Source: Acidobacteriota bacterium (GTDB lineage Bacteria; Aquificota; Aquificia; Aquificales; Aquificaceae). From it: DNA of 48,405 nucleotides. How positions within the stretch are numbered: position 1 is the stretch's first letter; each line of letters opens with the position of its first letter. The position numbers and the translations under genes were made by a program. The stretch spans positions 1 to 48,405 of the forward strand of contig RFFP01000027.1 of assembly GCA_003696155.1 (NCBI GenBank), read 5' to 3'. The notes under the pieces are model-generated. The model made no database searches. It saw only the letters and a list, made by a program, of their open reading frames with translations, and was not told where the DNA came from. This document shows, piece after piece, positions 24,906 through 34,024 of the stretch.

Positions 24906-24935
24906 AAATACCATTATAAATCTGGAGGTATGGTC

Positions 24936-27893
24936 ATGTTTAGTGAAAACCTGCTCTCCGCTGGCTCCCTAAGCTATCTAAACAAGGCAAAAGAGCTGGC
25001 AAGGTCTAGAGGAGATACAAAGGTGGACACAGACCACTTACTTCTGGTATTCCTTATGGAAGAAAAGTCACCCTTGGTAAAGTATCTGGAAAAGAGGGGT
25101 GTAGACGCCAAGGGCCTTTATAGGAAGATATACGAGTATATTGAAAAGCTCAGCTCTCAGATAAACAGGGCAGTGGAACAGGAAGCCACGCACCTTATAG
25201 ACCTAAGAAGCAAGGTGATGCAGGTAAAGTCTGACATAGGACAGGTCCAGATAGAGCTTCAGAAGGTGAGGAGCGCAAAGGAAAGGATAAAGAGCGAGCT
25301 TGAAAGGGCAAAAAGGTATGGGGACTACTGGAGCCTTCAGGAACTTCAAATAGAGCTAAGCAGATTAGAGAGGCTGGAAAGCAATTACAGAAGTCAACTT
25401 GAAAGCGTGGAAAGGAGCCTCTCCTCTTTGTTTAAGCAAGGAGATGTTAAAGCCTTCCTTGAGAACAGGCTTAGCATAGACGGTCTTATAAGGAAGGCTT
25501 TAGAGAGTTCTAGCCTCGTGGAGCAGATAAAAGAACTAGGGGTATCACCCGAAAGGGTCATAGACCCTGTGAGCAAAAAGGTATTTGGGAAGGAACCAAC
25601 CTTTGACTACTCCCAAAACCTTATAAAGGTTATGGAAAAGGCTCAAGACAGGGCAGTTTCCGAAGGCTCCACGCAGGTAGAGCCCTACCACATAGGGGGT
25701 GCCCTGATAGATGCAAAGGATACGATAGCGGGTAAACTTTTAGAGGACATATTAGGAGGTGAAAAGATGAAGGACGTTACTCAGGAGCTAAGAGAGGAAG
25801 AAAGGTCAGCCCTTGAGAGGTTTGGGGTGGACCTCACCCAGCTCGCAAAGGAGGGTAAGCTTGACCCAGTCATAGGAAGGGAAAGGGAGATAAACCAGCT
25901 CATAGAGGTGCTTCTGCGTAGGACCAAGAACAACCCAGTTCTCGTGGGAGACCCTGGTGTGGGCAAAACTGCCATAGTAGAGGGCTTTGCCCAGAGGGTT
26001 GTAAACAAGGAAGTTCCAGTAGAGCTCCAGGATAAGGCGGTTATATCCATAGACATGGGTTCTCTTATAGCAGGCTCCAAGTACAGGGGTGAGTTTGAAG
26101 AGAGGTTCAAAAGCCTTCTTGAAGAGGTAAAGCAAAAGGGCAACGTCATCCTTTTCATAGATGAGATACATACGGTGGTGGGCGCGGGAAAGGCAGAGGG
26201 TGCTGTGGATGCGGGCAACATGCTAAAACCTCCCTTAGCAAGGGGTGAGATAAGGCTCATAGGTGCTACCACGGTAGATGAATACAGAAAGTACATAGAG
26301 AAGGACCCAGCCCTTGAAAGGCGCTTCCAGCCCATATACGTAGATGAACCCGCAGAGGAGGAAACCTTAGAAATCCTAAAGGGTTTAAGATCTAAATTGG
26401 AAAGCCATCACAAGGTGAAGGTCTCCGACGAAGCCATAGAGTCCGCCGTAAAGCTCACAAAAAGGTACGTTACCTTTAGAAAGCTTCCCGACAAGGCCAT
26501 AGATGCCCTAGACCAGGCATGCGCTCGCAAGAAGCTCTCAGCGGTAGCAGTCCCTCCGGAGGTTCAGGAGATGGAGAGAAAGCTCCGCTCCTTGGAGGAG
26601 GAGATACAGAAGGCTTACCTTGAGGGCAACTATGAAAGGGAAGCCCAGCTCAAGATAAGGAAGGTTCAGCTTGAAAGGGAAAAACAGGAACTTTTGAGCA
26701 GGCTCGGAGGCGCCGATGCCCGTATTTCGGACATGAAGAGAAGGCTCGATGAGCTGGAACAGGAGATAGTAAGGGCCTCCGAGAGGGGAGATTACGAGAG
26801 AGAGGCAAACCTAAAGATTGAAAAGGTAAAGCTGGAAAAGGAACTAAAGGAGCTCGAGGCAAAGAAGGCTCAGGAGCTTATGGTCGGCTGGGACGATGTG
26901 GCGGCTGTCGTCTCCGAGTGGACGGGCATACCCGTATCCAAGTTAAAAGAGGAGGAGATGCAAAGGCTCCTAAGGCTTGAGGAGGAGCTGCATAGAAGGG
27001 TGATAAACCAGGAGCATGCGGTGGTTGCGGTCTCAGAGGCTGTAAGGAGAGCGAGGGCAGGCCTGAAGGACCCAAAAAGACCCATAGCAAGCTTTCTATT
27101 CCTAGGGCCCACCGGTGTTGGAAAGACGGAGCTTTCCAAAGCCCTGGCGGAACTCCTCTTTGGAGATGAGGAAGCCCTCATAAGGCTTGACATGTCCGAG
27201 TTCAAAGAAGAGCACAGCGTAGCCAAGCTCATAGGAGCACCCCCTGGCTATGTGGGATACGAGGAGGGTGGGAAGCTCACCGAAGCGGTACGTAGAAAAC
27301 CCTACTCTGTTCTTCTCCTTGACGAGGTGGAGAAGGCCCACCCAAGGGTCTTTGACCTCTTTTTGCAAGTGCTTGACGACGGTAGGCTGACCGACTCCCA
27401 TGGCAGGACGGTGGACTTTAGAAACACAGTCATAATCATGACTTCCAACATAGGCTCCCAGTACCTTCTTACCATATCCGTAGATGGTGATGAAGAAAGG
27501 GTCCAGAGGGAGTTTGAGAAAGCTAAAGAGAAGGTGCTTGAAGAGCTCCGCTACCACTTTAGGCCTGAGTTCCTAAACAGGATAGACGAGGTCATAGTCT
27601 TCAAACCCCTCACCATGAGGGAGCTTCTCAAGATAATAGACCTGCTTGTGGATGGCATAAACAGGAGGCTTGAGGAGAGAAACATAAGGATAGAGCTCTC
27701 CAAAGAAGCCAAGGAACACCTTGTAAAGCTAGGCTATGAGCCCGCATACGGAGCACGGCCACTAAAGAGGACGCTGCAAAGACATTTGGAAACACCTTTG
27801 GCTAATATGATAATAAAGGGAGAGATAAGGGATGGTCAGAAGGTCCTTGTGGATGTAGAGGATGGGAAGTTGACCTATCTCCCTACCCCATAA
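24936..27893 (+). CDS. clpB: ClpB disaggregase with an inserted coiled coil in the N-domain
   Basis: An Hsp100 of 985 residues, about 120 more than usual. The start is the second ATG (24936), 6 nt after GGAGGT; the first ATG touches that site. The first Clp-N repeat (about 10-65) is separated from the second (about 226-280) by a charged coiled coil and a helical segment (about 70-215). AAA-1 has Walker A GDPGVGKT (338-345) and [11 protein letters not shown]-2 has GPTGVGKT (723-730). The middle domain holds two near-identical coiled-coil repeats at about 550-588 and 604-642. ClpB works with DnaK to resolve aggregates. It overlaps the spoT end by 11 bp. Confidence 0.95.
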
Positions 27894-29982
27894 CTCTCTC
27901 CACACTCTCCACGCCCTCCACCTTCTGGAGGGTTTCCCTTACCTTTAAAAAATCCGCATAGCTCCTTACCTGAAGGTTAAAGTCCATTATAGCACTGCCA
28001 GAGGGTAAACTCTTGGTCCTTGCCTCTGTTATATTTGCACCCAGCTTTGCGATGGTTGAGGTCACCTCTGCGAGGATGCCAACCCTGTCTCGGACAAGGA
28101 GCCTTATCTTAACCGGGTGGAGCCCCTCAGACCTGGTCCAGTTGACCCTAAGGACCTTTTCTGGAAAGTTCTTTAGCACGTACTGAAGATTAGGGCAGTC
28201 CTTTGAGTGAACCATAAGACCCTTACCCCTTGATATTACGCCAAAAATCTCCTCTCCTGGAAGGGGTGTGCAACACTCCGCAAGGTTATGGAGCACGCTC
28301 CCAAGACCATCCATATTGAGAACATCTTCTAGCCTTTCCTCCTTCTCCTTGTGCTCCTTGGGCTTCTTAAACAGAGAATATACTCTTTCCTTTGAGACCC
28401 TACCGCTACCCAAAAGAAGAAGGAGCTCTTCCTCGTTTTTAGCTCCACTCTCCTTTGTTAAGACCTCCAGAAGGGTTTCTCTGCTCAGATTGAGTTTGCT
28501 AGAGAGGAGCTCCAACTTTTCCCTGCCGAGCTCTACGTAGCGTTCCCTTTCCAGCTCTTTCAGGGCGGACTTTATCTTATTTTTAGCCTTAGAGGTCACA
28601 ACGAACTTGATCCACTCCGCGTTAGGTCTTTTGTTGGGGCTTGTGATAATCTCCACCATATCACCGCTCTGTAGCTTGTAGTTAAGGGGTACTATCCTAC
28701 CGTTCACCTTGGCACCAGCACAGTGGTTTCCCACCTCCGTATGTATGTGATAGGCAAAATCCACAGGAGTTGCACCCTTGGGCAGGACAAGAAGGTCACC
28801 CTTCGGTGTAAAAACAAAGACCTCCTCGGAAAACAGCTCCAACTTTAAGTTTTCCATAAGCTCCTGTGGGTTCTTGCTTCCTTGAATACTCTCTACAAGA
28901 CCTCTAAGCCAGGAGTATATACCGCTATCCTTTGCCCTTCCACCCTCCTTATAAGCCCAGTGTGCAGCTATGCCCTTTTCAGCACGCTCGTGCATATCCC
29001 ACGTTCTTATCTGTACCTCTACCATCCTCCCCTTCGGTCCTATTACTGTAGTATGAAGAGATTGGTAAAGGTTGGGCTTTGGGAGAGATATGTAGTCATC
29101 GAACTTTCCCGGTACAGGCGTGAATACGCTGTGCACCACACCCAGTACTAGGTAACACTCCTGAACCGTGCCTACTATGACCCTGACACCCAAGATATCA
29201 TGTACATCCTCGAGTCTTATACCCTTCCTTATGGTCTTTTGCCATATACTGAAAAGGTGCTTTGGTCTATAGGTTATGGTAGCGTTAATACCCGCCTGAC
29301 CTATGGCTTCTCTCAGCCTGGGAATAAAGAACCTTTTGAGGTATTCCTCCAACTCCTTCCTGCTCTTTCCTACAAAGTTCTTTACCTCCTCGTACTCCCT
29401 TCTGTAGAGGTACATAAAGCATAGGTCTTCCAACTCAGTTTTTATCTTCCAAAGGCCAAGCCTGTTGGCTATTGGTACGTATATCTCGAGGGTTTCTCTT
29501 GCTATCCTTAGCTGCTTCTCCACGGGGAGATGATTTAGGGTCTTCATGTTATGTAATCTGTCAAGCAACTTTACAAATATTACCCTAAGGTCCTTGGAAA
29601 AGGCTAGCACAAGCTTCCTGTAGTTCTCCGCTTTATGTACCTCAGTATCTTTGAAGTTTATCTTACCGAGTTTTGTGACTCCCTCCACAATGTCTGCTAC
29701 CTCCTTACCAAAGCGCTCTTTAATATCATCGTAAGTTGCATCCGTATCCTCCAGGACATCATGGAGGAGCCCCGCCACAATGGTGGTAATATCCATGTCC
29801 AGTTCTAGAAGCATATGGGCTACTTCTATAGGGTGTGCAGTGTATGGCTCTCCAGACTTTCTGTACTGACCGGCATGTTTTTCCTCTATGAATTCAAGGG
29901 CTCTTTTAACCCTTTCCTTATCCTCCTCCCCTAAATCTTTTAACAACTTCTCATAATGCTTCTTATGTAACAATGTCTTCAT
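27883..29982 (-). CDS. bifunctional (p)ppGpp synthetase/hydrolase (Rel/SpoT)
   Basis: A 699-residue RelA/SpoT homologue. The hydrolase HD domain is intact (HPIEVAHML, then GLLHDVLEDT near 70-80). The synthetase domain has PNLYQSLHTTVIGP and EVQIRT, so both activities are expected. A TGS domain (about 385-445) and a C-terminal ACT domain (about 620-699) follow, the regulatory half that senses ribosome state. It is the only such gene in the window. The start is divergent from mreB with a 17-bp gap and a predicted leaderless promoter. Confidence 0.95.
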   Translation of the reverse strand: MKTLLHKKHYEKLLKDLGEEDKERVKRALEFIEEKHAGQYRKSGEPYTAHPIEVAHMLLELDMDITTIVAGLLHDVLEDTDATYDDIKERFGKEVADIVEGVTKLGKINFKDTEVHKAENYRKLVLAFSKDLRVIFVKLLDRLHNMKTLNHLPVEKQLRIARETLEIYVPIANRLGLWKIKTELEDLCFMYLYRREYEEVKNFVGKSRKELEEYLKRFFIPRLREAIGQAGINATITYRPKHLFSIWQKTIRKGIRLEDVHDILGVRVIVGTVQECYLVLGVVHSVFTPVPGKFDDYISLPKPNLYQSLHTTVIGPKGRMVEVQIRTWDMHERAEKGIAAHWAYKEGGRAKDSGIYSWLRGLVESIQGSKNPQELMENLKLELFSEEVFVFTPKGDLLVLPKGATPVDFAYHIHTEVGNHCAGAKVNGRIVPLNYKLQSGDMVEIITSPNKRPNAEWIKFVVTSKAKNKIKSALKELERERYVELGREKLELLSSKLNLSRETLLEVLTKESGAKNEEELLLLLGSGRVSKERVYSLFKKPKEHKEKEERLEDVLNMDGLGSVLHNLAECCTPLPGEEIFGVISRGKGLMVHSKDCPNLQYVLKNFPEKVLRVNWTRSEGLHPVKIRLLVRDRVGILAEVTSTIAKLGANITEARTKSLPSGSAIMDFNLQVRSYADFLKVRETLQKVEGVESVERVMG

Positions 29983-29986
29983 AGTT

Positions 29987-29997
29987 TATAATATTAT
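29987..29997. promoter_or_regulatory. overlapping divergent -10 boxes of mreB and spoT
   Basis: The 17-bp gap between the two start codons holds the palindrome ATAATATTAT (29988-29997). On plus it contains TATAAT (29987-29992), 7 nt before the mreB ATG. On minus it contains TATTAT (29995-29990), 7 nt before the spoT ATG, with TTGCTA 17 nt further up inside mreB as a -35. Both mRNAs would begin at or next to their start codons. Confidence 0.6.
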
Positions 29998-29999
29998 CA

Positions 30000-31031
30000 A
30001 TGCTACACAAATTAGCAAACCTCTTCGGTCTGGTTTCTAACAACATAGGTATAGACCTTGGAACAGCAAACACCGTTGTTTTCAGCCAGGGGAAAGGTAT
30101 AGTACTCTACGAACCATCCATAGTTGCAGTGGATGTGCGTACGGGAAGGGTTCTTGCAGTGGGCAAGGGAGCGAAAGAGATGCTCGGTAAAACACCGGAA
30201 AGCATACAAACGGTTAGACCTCTCAGAGACGGTGTTATAACAGATTTTGAGGCTACGAAGGTCATGCTGACCCACTTTATAAACAGGGCTATTGGGGGAA
30301 GCATATTTAAGCCAAAACCGAGGGTTGTAATAGGTGTGCCCTCCGGTGTAACCCAGGTAGAGAAGAGGGCGGTTATCGATGCTGCAAGGAGTGCAGGAGC
30401 CAGGGAGGTCTATCTAATAGCGGAACCTATGGCTGCAGCAATAGGTGCTGGGCTTCCTATTGAAGAACCTATAGGCAACATGGTTGTGGACATAGGTGGA
30501 GGCACCACAGAGATAGCGGTAATATCCCTAGCGGGCATAGTGGTTTCCAATTCAATAAGAATAGCCGGCGACGAGATGACCGAAGCTGTGGCACAGCATG
30601 TTAAAAAGAAACACCATCTTCTTATAGGTGAACAAACAGCGGAGAGGGTAAAGATAGAGCTGGGAAGTGCCATATATGAAGATGAGGAGAGATGGATGGA
30701 GATAAGGGGAAGGGATATAACAGGGCTTCCAAAGGTGGTGAAGATAACCAACAGAAACATAACTGAAGCTTTGGAGGACGTTATCTCCTCCATTATAAAT
30801 GCAATAAAGTCTACATTGGAAAGAACACCCCCAGAGCTAGCATCGGACATAGCGGAAAGGGGTATAATTCTAGCGGGTGGCGGTTCCCTACTAAAGAACC
30901 TTCACATAAGAATAGAGAGGGAGACGGGTATAAAGACCGACTACTGTGAGGACCCTATAACCGCGGTTGCCAGAGGTGTCGGTAGCGTGCTGGAGAATAT
31001 AGAGCTAATAAGAAAAGTATCCATGGTATGA
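30000..31031 (+). CDS. mreB: rod-shape-determining actin homologue MreB
   Basis: A 343-residue actin-like filament protein that guides lateral wall synthesis. Phosphate 1 motif IGIDLGTANTVVF (about 17-29), phosphate 2 VVDIGGGTTEIAV (about 162-174), and the adenosine motif GIILAGGGSLL (about 288-298). The N-terminal MLHKLANLFG amphipathic stretch fits the usual membrane-binding start and supports ATG 30000. It is followed by mreC with an ATGA overlap. Confidence 0.96.
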   Translation: MLHKLANLFGLVSNNIGIDLGTANTVVFSQGKGIVLYEPSIVAVDVRTGRVLAVGKGAKEMLGKTPESIQTVRPLRDGVITDFEATKVMLTHFINRAIGGSIFKPKPRVVIGVPSGVTQVEKRAVIDAARSAGAREVYLIAEPMAAAIGAGLPIEEPIGNMVVDIGGGTTEIAVISLAGIVVSNSIRIAGDEMTEAVAQHVKKKHHLLIGEQTAERVKIELGSAIYEDEERWMEIRGRDITGLPKVVKITNRNITEALEDVISSIINAIKSTLERTPPELASDIAERGIILAGGGSLLKNLHIRIERETGIKTDYCEDPITAVARGVGSVLENIELIRKVSMV

Positions 31032-32265: not shown

Positions 32266-34024
32266 GCGAAGGCTCCTGTTCTTAGCCCTTGTAGGTTTTG
32301 TTCTTTATCTTTTAACCGCTCTAAGGCTGTTTTACCTACAGGTCCTTAAAGGTGGTGAATACAGAAGGCTTGCAGAACATAACTACATCAGAAAAAGGGT
32401 TCGCTATCCCCTGAGGGGTGAGATACTGGACAGAAGAGGTGAAAAGCTTGCCTACGATGAACCAAAGTACCTATTGCTTTTGGACCATCAGAAACTTGAG
32501 GAAGAGAAGGGTCTAAGAGAAGTTATTGAAAACCTGAGGGAACTCTTTGGCTTAGAAGTCTCTATAGAAAACATAAGAGGTAAAAAGGCTATAGAACCTA
32601 TAGTTTTGACAACCTTAGAAAGTCAGGAGGATATAGACAGGTTCTACAACAACAGCTATAAACTGCCTGGTGTATTTATAAACATGGTCCCCACAAGGTT
32701 TTACACCCATGGAGAGATATGCTCCCATGTGGTAGGTTACGTTGGTTATCCAACAGAGGAAAATCTCAAAAGTTACGGAGAAAGAATAGGTAGTCAAAGC
32801 TTAATTGGAATGATGGGATTGGAAAGTGCCTTTGATAAGGAGCTTTTAGGTTGGGTCGGTGCGGAGGAAGTTATGGTAAACGCGGTAGGAAGGGTCATAG
32901 GCAAGGTGAGAGACGTGGAGCCTAAGAAAGGGCATACACTGATAACCACCATAGATTTAAGGATTCAAAAGATAGTCTATGAATTATTCAAAGAGTCAGG
33001 ACATAGGGCTGGGGGAGTGCTTGTCCTTGACGCAAGGACAGGAGAGGTACTTAGTCTTGTGAGCTACCCAGCCTTTGACCCTAACAAGGTCTCCCAGCTG
33101 TGGAAAGAGTACAAGGAAGACAAATACAAACCTCTCTTCAACAGGGCTTTATTGGGTAAATATCCCCCTGCGTCTGTTGTAAAGCCCGCTCTGGGTGTAG
33201 CCCTTTTGGAAAGGGGGATCTCTTCAAAGGAGGGTGTGCTTTGCAAGGGTTACTTTGAGCTTGGAAATAGACGTTTCTACTGCTGGAACAGGCAGGGGCA
33301 TGGATGGGAAAACCTGCACGACGCCATAAAACATTCCTGCGACGTATACTTTTACAGCTACGGCTACCAAAGGCTTGGACCAAGAGAGATTGAAAGGGTG
33401 CTCAGGAGTTTTTCTTATGCAGAACCCATACCCTTTGACCTACCGCTGGCAAGGGGCTTTATACCCACACCGGAATGGAAAAAGAAGAGGATAAAGGAGC
33501 CTTGGTTTGGTGGGGATACGGTAAACCTATCCATAGGCCAGGGGTACATAACCTCAACCCTTATGGAACAGACGCTTATGATGATGGCCATAGCAAACAA
33601 CGGAGTCATCTACAGGCCAGTTTTGGTTAAAGAGATAAGGGATAGCATGGGCAAAACCCTATGGAAGGCTCAGAGGACCGTCTACAAGGTTGTAAGAGCA
33701 AAGCCCGAGCACTTCGCGCTTATAAGGGAATCCCTAAAGGATGTGGTAAGGTCGGGAACGGCAACACTTGCCCTATCTTCCATCGTGGATGTAGCGGGTA
33801 AAACGGGCACCGCTCAGGTTTCTCCCCATAGTTCTGGAAGGAAAAACCTTCCTTATCACCTTAGGGATCATGCTTGGTTCGTTGGTTTTGCACCCTACAG
33901 AGACCCTATGTTCATCATAGGTGTGCTGGTAGAGCACGGTGGGTCCGGAGGTGCGGTCGCAGCTCCCATAGCAAGAAGGATACTGGAGAGAATATACATG
34001 GAAGGCATACACAAGGAGCTTTAA
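32258..34024 (+). CDS. mrdA: penicillin-binding protein 2 (elongation transpeptidase)
   Basis: A 588-residue class B PBP: a membrane anchor (about 5-27), the YPLRGEILDRRG pedestal start (about 50-61), and a transpeptidase domain with SxxK as S306-V-V-K309, SxN-type S360-C-D, and KTGT (515-518). The SCD form in place of SxN is normal in PBP2. It crosslinks side-wall peptidoglycan with RodA, not found here, and MreBCD. murD begins 1 bp after its stop. Confidence 0.94.
   Translation: MSRRRLLFLALVGFVLYLLTALRLFYLQVLKGGEYRRLAEHNYIRKRVRYPLRGEILDRRGEKLAYDEPKYLLLLDHQKLEEEKGLREVIENLRELFGLEVSIENIRGKKAIEPIVLTTLESQEDIDRFYNNSYKLPGVFINMVPTRFYTHGEICSHVVGYVGYPTEENLKSYGERIGSQSLIGMMGLESAFDKELLGWVGAEEVMVNAVGRVIGKVRDVEPKKGHTLITTIDLRIQKIVYELFKESGHRAGGVLVLDARTGEVLSLVSYPAFDPNKVSQLWKEYKEDKYKPLFNRALLGKYPPASVVKPALGVALLERGISSKEGVLCKGYFELGNRRFYCWNRQGHGWENLHDAIKHSCDVYFYSYGYQRLGPREIERVLRSFSYAEPIPFDLPLARGFIPTPEWKKKRIKEPWFGGDTVNLSIGQGYITSTLMEQTLMMMAIANNGVIYRPVLVKEIRDSMGKTLWKAQRTVYKVVRAKPEHFALIRESLKDVVRSGTATLALSSIVDVAGKTGTAQVSPHSSGRKNLPYHLRDHAWFVGFAPYRDPMFIIGVLVEHGGSGGAVAAPIARRILERIYMEGIHKEL

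Follow-up and report, generated by a model that had tools for sequence, protein, structure and literature searches.

A compact, probably bidirectional promoter with one shared -10 core between rel and mreB in an Aquificaceae genus

Introduction

What can a gap of 17 bp between two divergent genes encode, and does sharing it tie the expression of the two genes together? The question arises where a (p)ppGpp enzyme and MreB are encoded head to head in an Aquificaceae bacterium (NCBI GenBank assembly GCA_003696155.1, our genome G000). The host is heat-loving. The window that we analyzed is the whole stretch of 48,405 nucleotides given by positions 1 to 48,405 of contig RFFP01000027.1, forward strand. 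An earlier note, made from the letters of this stretch, had proposed that one palindrome in the gap supplies a -10 box to both strands, and that stringent response and cell-elongation genes may be mutually exclusive at this site because RNA polymerase cannot occupy both promoters at once. The first proposal concerns the architecture of the promoter and the second its biological purpose. As set out below, the two fared differently.

Results

The gene on the minus strand (27883..29982; A of the ATG at 29982) encodes a 699-aa long RSH protein of the RelA/SpoT type, with the Pfam domains HD_4, RelA_SpoT, TGS, RelA_AH_RIS and ACT_4. It had earlier been labeled spoT, but the domain set (HD/RelA_SpoT/TGS/ACT) and the fact that the protein is the single match at E <= 1e-50 in its own genome make rel the better name. 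An alternative start is possible at a TTG that lies nine bases inside rel; with it the gap would be 26 bp. At the other end of the gene, rel overlaps the 3' end of a plus-strand ClpB-family gene (24930-27893; Clp_N, AAA and ClpB_D2-small domains in Pfam) by 11 bp, 27883-27893; with this overlap and the 17-bp gap upstream, rel is squeezed at both ends. On the plus strand, mreB (30000..31031; A of the ATG at 30000) encodes 343 aa matching MreB_Mbl at 5.5e-136 (Pfam). It is the first gene of a run that continues with mreC, a 150-aa open reading frame and a PBP2-like gene and ends at 34024, the later genes contributing MreC, Transpeptidase and PBP_dimer domains (Pfam). The 150-aa frame between mreC and the PBP2-like gene gave no Pfam match, and we call it mreD by position only.

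The entire intergenic region is 29983..29999, AGTTTATAATATTATCA; over 29980-30002 the plus strand reads cat AGTTTATAATATTATCA atg, and the A's of the two start codons (29982 on the minus strand, 30000 on the plus strand) are 18 bp apart. No Shine-Dalgarno sequence is found on either side. The earlier note was correct by sequence on the 17-bp distance, on the coordinates and on the 10-bp palindrome, ATAATATTAT (29988-29997). The window has one copy of this palindrome, and shuffled sequences have a mean of 0.02. A standard sigma-70 scan of 29700-30300 on both strands, at 9 of 12, returned no promoter (mean 1.0 in shuffles). A terminator-like site inside mreB, on the minus strand at 30032-30016, was taken as chance (mean 0.4 in shuffles).

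Both genes were found in 12 of 14 genomes of the window's genus; the other two are incomplete and matched neither gene. They are divergent neighbors in 11 genomes and lie apart in one (G043). The gap measures 17 bp in nine of the pair-bearing genomes, 16 bp in one and 18 bp in one. When the nine gaps of 17 bp are compared, columns 1-14 show no differences, and variation is confined to the three columns on the mreB side. Invariant columns thus make up 14 of 17 in the gap, compared with 2 of 103 fourfold sites of mreB in eight of the same genomes, and judged by this count the conservation of the gap exceeds chance. The conserved element is a 7-bp core, TATAATA (29987..29993), which reads TATAAT on the plus strand and TATTAT on the minus strand and is present in all 11 pair-bearing genomes. 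The palindrome, which we considered as a conserved unit and rejected, is complete in just three of the 11. Aligning the same gap in relatives, a check suggested in the earlier note, therefore bears out the gene pair and the core but not the palindrome as such.

That an AT-rich gap was simply kept by chance or recent descent, with no shared promoter function, is very improbable. TATAATA is indeed a common word in this window (8 copies against a mean of 5.0 in shuffles, with 14 of 100 shuffles reaching 8), but the difference between gap columns and fourfold sites speaks against this account, as does the genus-wide excess of such gaps described below.

In G043, the genome in which the genes are apart (L013, L077), mreB keeps TATAATA and faces, 21 bp away, a divergent gene with class I tRNA synthetase and anticodon-binding domains, and rel adjoins the gene for ribosomal protein L20, keeping TATTAT at -11. 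A rel match elsewhere (G054:C11) is in two overlapping pieces, one with in-frame stops, which could reflect a frameshift, an assembly error or decay.

The genus provides a context in which such a small gap can be read. Samples from two of its genomes show a sharp peak of TATAAT-like boxes at -12 to -14 relative to the first ATG (45 of 279 and 50 of 337 genes); at internal ATGs, which served as the control, box frequency is 0-0.6% per position. Among 110 box-led ATGs, a Shine-Dalgarno sequence precedes 0.9%, and C or T stands directly before the ATG in 88. The window and L072 were part of the sample for these statistics, which comprise the positional peak, the position weight matrix (PWM) and the Shine-Dalgarno check. 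Published predictions for Aquificae, as far as the source was consulted in part, put leaderless genes at 20.7-32.4% in the two of five genomes where any were detected and describe TANNNT about 12 bp upstream of them (PMC3160421); the box peak and the number of box-led genes in the genus agree with these predictions. Since leaderless genes are common in the genus, the rel and the mreB transcript probably both begin on the AUG or no more than about 3 nt away.

The mreB gene fits this picture. Its box, TATAAT (29987..29992, plus strand), has its first T at -13 and ends 7 nt from the ATG; it scores 9.97 with the genus leaderless PWM, falls in the commonest spacing class and keeps a position between -12 and -14 throughout the 11 pair-bearing genomes. 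With no Shine-Dalgarno sequence, mreB thus has the profile of a leaderless gene. The base 5' of its ATG is a purine in 10 of the 11, unlike most box-led genes, so the transcript may carry a leader of 1-2 nt. The AG at 29983..29984 (plus strand) possibly forms an extended -10: AGTT is invariant in the nine genomes, and box-led genes of the genus are enriched for G 2-4 nt 5' of the -10 hexamer.

The signals facing rel are weaker. By the leaderless profile, rel has no Shine-Dalgarno sequence and a T directly before its ATG in 12 of 12 genomes, but its boxes, at -11 and -14, score low. The first candidate, TATTAT (29988..29993, minus strand), matches consensus at five of six positions, with its first T at -11, 5 nt from the rel ATG. 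It scores 2.19, and its spacing is seen in none of the 114 genes of the PWM model set; it is nonetheless found at -11 in every one of the 12 genus genomes that have rel, G043 with its split pair included. The alternative, TAATAT (29991..29996, minus strand), matches at four of six, with its first T at -14, 8 nt from the ATG, and scores 1.57; it is kept in nine of 12 genomes, and its spacing class accounts for 30 of 114 in the model set. The claim that the palindrome places a -10 box 7 nt from both start codons holds exactly for mreB but only approximately for rel. The hexamer at that distance from the rel ATG, which is also 17 nt from TTGCTA, is AATATT; it matches at four of six and has a PWM score of -0.25, the lowest among the rel candidates tried. 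A single shared -10 between the start codons, which the earlier note also proposed, is supported.

A -35-like element for rel, likewise anticipated in the earlier note, lies inside mreB. TTGCTA (30013..30018, minus strand; mreB codons 5-7) stands at -36 from the rel ATG in the window, and TTGCYA recurs in all 11 pair-bearing genomes, at -37 where the gap is 18 bp and -35 where it is 16 bp, with TTGCCA in one genome. In G043, the one genome with a split pair, no TTGCYA occurs within 60 nt upstream of rel, and mreB codons 4-5 differ. Among 11 mreB sequences, codons 4-6 rank second of 341 three-codon windows for codon identity; this test was run after the conservation had been seen, so that its figures, including a product of 0.0011 with add-one, are post hoc. 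One split genome and a post hoc test are weak evidence that the element is retained where the pair is intact. If synonymous constraint at the start of mreB were confirmed, it would mean that a promoter shapes the codon choice of the neighboring gene.

The poor scores of the rel -10 candidates, set beside the consensus box of mreB, raise the alternative that the gap drives mreB alone, with the rel promoter deeper inside mreB and the conserved bases serving mreB. We consider this unlikely. The invariant bases extend to the rel ATG, and TATTAT persists at -11 of rel in G043, a genome in which mreB lies at another site. Moreover, rel lacks the Shine-Dalgarno sequence expected of a longer leader, and TTGCYA tracks the intact pair.

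A promoter that serves both genes also fits the geometry of known bidirectional promoters. These were defined by divergent transcription start sites 7-25 bp apart, and their commonest spacing is 18 bp, a distance that pairs -7 on one strand with -11 on the other and sets a -18T opposite each start A (PMC12825309; PMC10268837, both consulted in part). Here the start codons are 18 bp apart and the start sites are predicted. A reciprocally paired -7T/-11A is present on both strands at TATAATA (29987-29993) in all 11 pair-bearing genomes. The core corresponds to the ideal symmetric one displaced by one base, for which the ideal starts would be 29999 and 29981. Position 29981 is the U of the rel AUG, so the rel start would have to deviate from that geometry by 1 nt or more. 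The reciprocal -18T would fit if both transcripts start at the A of the ATG, whereas the -7/-11 geometry places the starts one base away.

The layout is not peculiar to rel and mreB. Of the 104 divergent pairs counted in samples from three genus genomes, 17 have a gap of 14-21 bp and so start codons 15-22 bp apart; bins of the same size hold one pair at 6-13 bp, four at 22-29 bp and five at 30-37 bp. Boxes occur on both strands in 15 of the 17 short-gap pairs, compared with 55 of 1835 CAT-N14-21-ATG sites at large, and 16 of the 17 have no Shine-Dalgarno sequence on either side. In the other two, a box is missing from at least one strand. L171 is one of these two: it faces an 88-aa open reading frame with no Pfam match and may be miscalled. 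A pair was counted if both of its genes start with ATG, as is the case for 104 of the 124 divergent pairs in these samples. The pairs come from crude ORF calls (at least 100 aa, or 150 in the actinobacterium mentioned below; longest first; first ATG), and they omit the window, L072, L163, L165 and L175, which had been chosen for mreB or pattern hits. At least two of the 17 pairs appear to be repeats across two genomes, with near-identical gaps and sizes, so the counts are not all independent; the repeats were outside the Pfam scan.

In an exact search, the pattern CAT-N4-TATAATA-N6-ATG has 19 matches in 11 of the 14 genus genomes, and a reversed control pattern has one. Nine of the 19 are the rel-mreB gap, six fall in a MazG pair, three in an MNHE pair, and one has no real left-hand gene. 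The MazG pair (L097, L098, L104, L105, L110, L112) is conserved and divergent and joins a 401-aa protein without a Pfam match to a MazG protein; the MNHE pair (L099, L107, L108), also conserved and divergent, joins a 145-aa protein without a match to an MNHE antiporter subunit. Outside the genus, gaps of 14-21 bp account for four of 41 pairs in G052 (two boxed on both strands), two of 48 in G001 (one so boxed) and one of 31 in G099 (none), lower counts that make the excess clearest in the window's genus. In an actinobacterial sample, used as a second leaderless-rich test, no gap of 14-21 bp occurred among 23 pairs, and TATAAT-like boxes preceded only 0.7% of starts.

These pairs bear on the idea of a regulatory switch, in which a polymerase on the shared -10 would make rel and mreB mutually exclusive and so couple the stringent response to elongation. 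Several points favor it. The -10 elements overlap, the core is shared by all 11 pair-bearing genomes, and two polymerases are sterically excluded at published promoters of this kind, where activation of one direction can repress the opposite RNA (PMC12825309, consulted in part); on that published view, the premise that two polymerases cannot occupy the site together is plausible. A regulator is also present in two of the 15 short-gap pairs scanned with Pfam (a DeoR-like HTH protein with a carbamoyltransferase, and a Crp-like protein with an L-PSP protein), so some pairs may be regulatory. Most of the 15, however, have no evident functional link: they join, for example, an FHIPEP protein and a tRNA synthetase, TGT and a radical SAM protein, GatB and a Ham1-type protein, an alcohol dehydrogenase and histidinol dehydrogenase, a cytidylyltransferase and a short-chain dehydrogenase, and a TonB-like protein and a glycerol-3-phosphate dehydrogenase. 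At five E. coli bidirectional promoters, basal activity was too weak for competition between directions (PMC12825309, consulted in part). In G043 the two genes are apart, each with its own box. Several other genera of the family have the pair with longer gaps (in genus g4 a GGAGGAG Shine-Dalgarno sequence precedes mreB in five of five), and in further genera (e.g. G030, G052, G057) and in the order's second family (e.g. G099) the genes are far apart. As the layout joins other pairs with no evident link and mreB has other divergent partners elsewhere, the mutual exclusion of stringent response and elongation put forward in the earlier note finds no specific support; we regard such a switch as improbable.

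Discussion

We conclude with good confidence, on the strength of sequence comparison, that the gap is a compact bidirectional housekeeping promoter with a shared core, whose two mRNAs are leaderless or nearly so from predicted start sites. The AT-rich core TATAATA would act as TATAAT toward mreB; toward rel it would act as TATTAT, or else through TAATAT, which overlaps it. Transcription of mreB is predicted to start at 29999 or 30000; for rel the predicted start is 29982 or a position at most about 3 nt upstream. Toward mreB the promoter would be strong, with a consensus and perhaps extended -10 and no conserved -35; the rel direction would combine a weaker -10 with help from the TTGCYA element in mreB codons 5-7. 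By analogy with published cases, the core would be melted by one polymerase at a time.

This arrangement was most likely selected mainly for its economy: a divergent pair needs just one shared -10 between its genes if leaderless initiation is common. Because other pairs in the genus use the shared-box layout, the rel-mreB gap is probably not a special stress-versus-growth switch. We lean toward a broader proposal: doubly leaderless pairs on one shared -10 may be a standard unit of genome compaction in this genus, with promoter geometry setting the intergenic distance, the start codons supplying the opposite -18T and hidden -35 elements setting the balance between directions.

Both ingredients have precedents. 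Like the shared -10 bidirectional promoters that Warman, Grainger and colleagues described in E. coli and Salmonella, the rel-mreB promoter has a symmetric -10 with coincident -7 and -11 positions and a predicted start-site spacing of about 18 bp, and those promoters often lie between divergent genes as well. It differs from them in that the start codons are at or next to the predicted start sites, that the promoter core takes up the entire gap between the genes, and that flanking promoter bases lie inside the coding sequence of the opposite gene. With the leaderless TA-led genes predicted in Aquificae, Aquifex aeolicus among them (PMC3160421, consulted in part), rel and mreB share the lack of a Shine-Dalgarno sequence, and mreB shares a TANNNT about 12 nt before the ATG, for which rel has its low-scoring candidates; the difference is that here two such genes would stand head to head on one box. 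The consulted parts of two further papers report archaeal bidirectional transcription that is mostly leadered (PMC6640164) and leaderless transcripts with no description of shared promoters (PMC7566282). Among the matches listed in our literature search, titles and abstract openings included no paper on doubly leaderless bidirectional promoters, and no title concerned the rel-mreB pair.

The locus thus joins two known things, leaderless mRNAs and shared -10 promoters, in a minimal layout in which the intergenic length would follow the geometry of the polymerase. From this follows the prediction that leaderless-rich genomes have a peak in the spacing of divergent genes, one that can be searched for. 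The locus also carries a warning that such overlaps should not be read as regulatory switches.

Two observations concern the wider family. In some other genera, the 157-202 bp rel-mreB gap of L035-L038, L039 and L052 contains a similar GC-rich stretch, CCAAATNCCGCC...GGGNANTCC-like, which is possibly a structured RNA or a repeat; a search of L035, L039 and L052 against Rfam at the gathering threshold gave no match. In genus g8 (L014, L016, L017, L018, L022, L026), TAAAAT lies just 5' of mreB, which faces another divergent start. The partner in L014 has class II tRNA synthetase and editing domains, and we take it to be a tRNA synthetase of the prolyl type.
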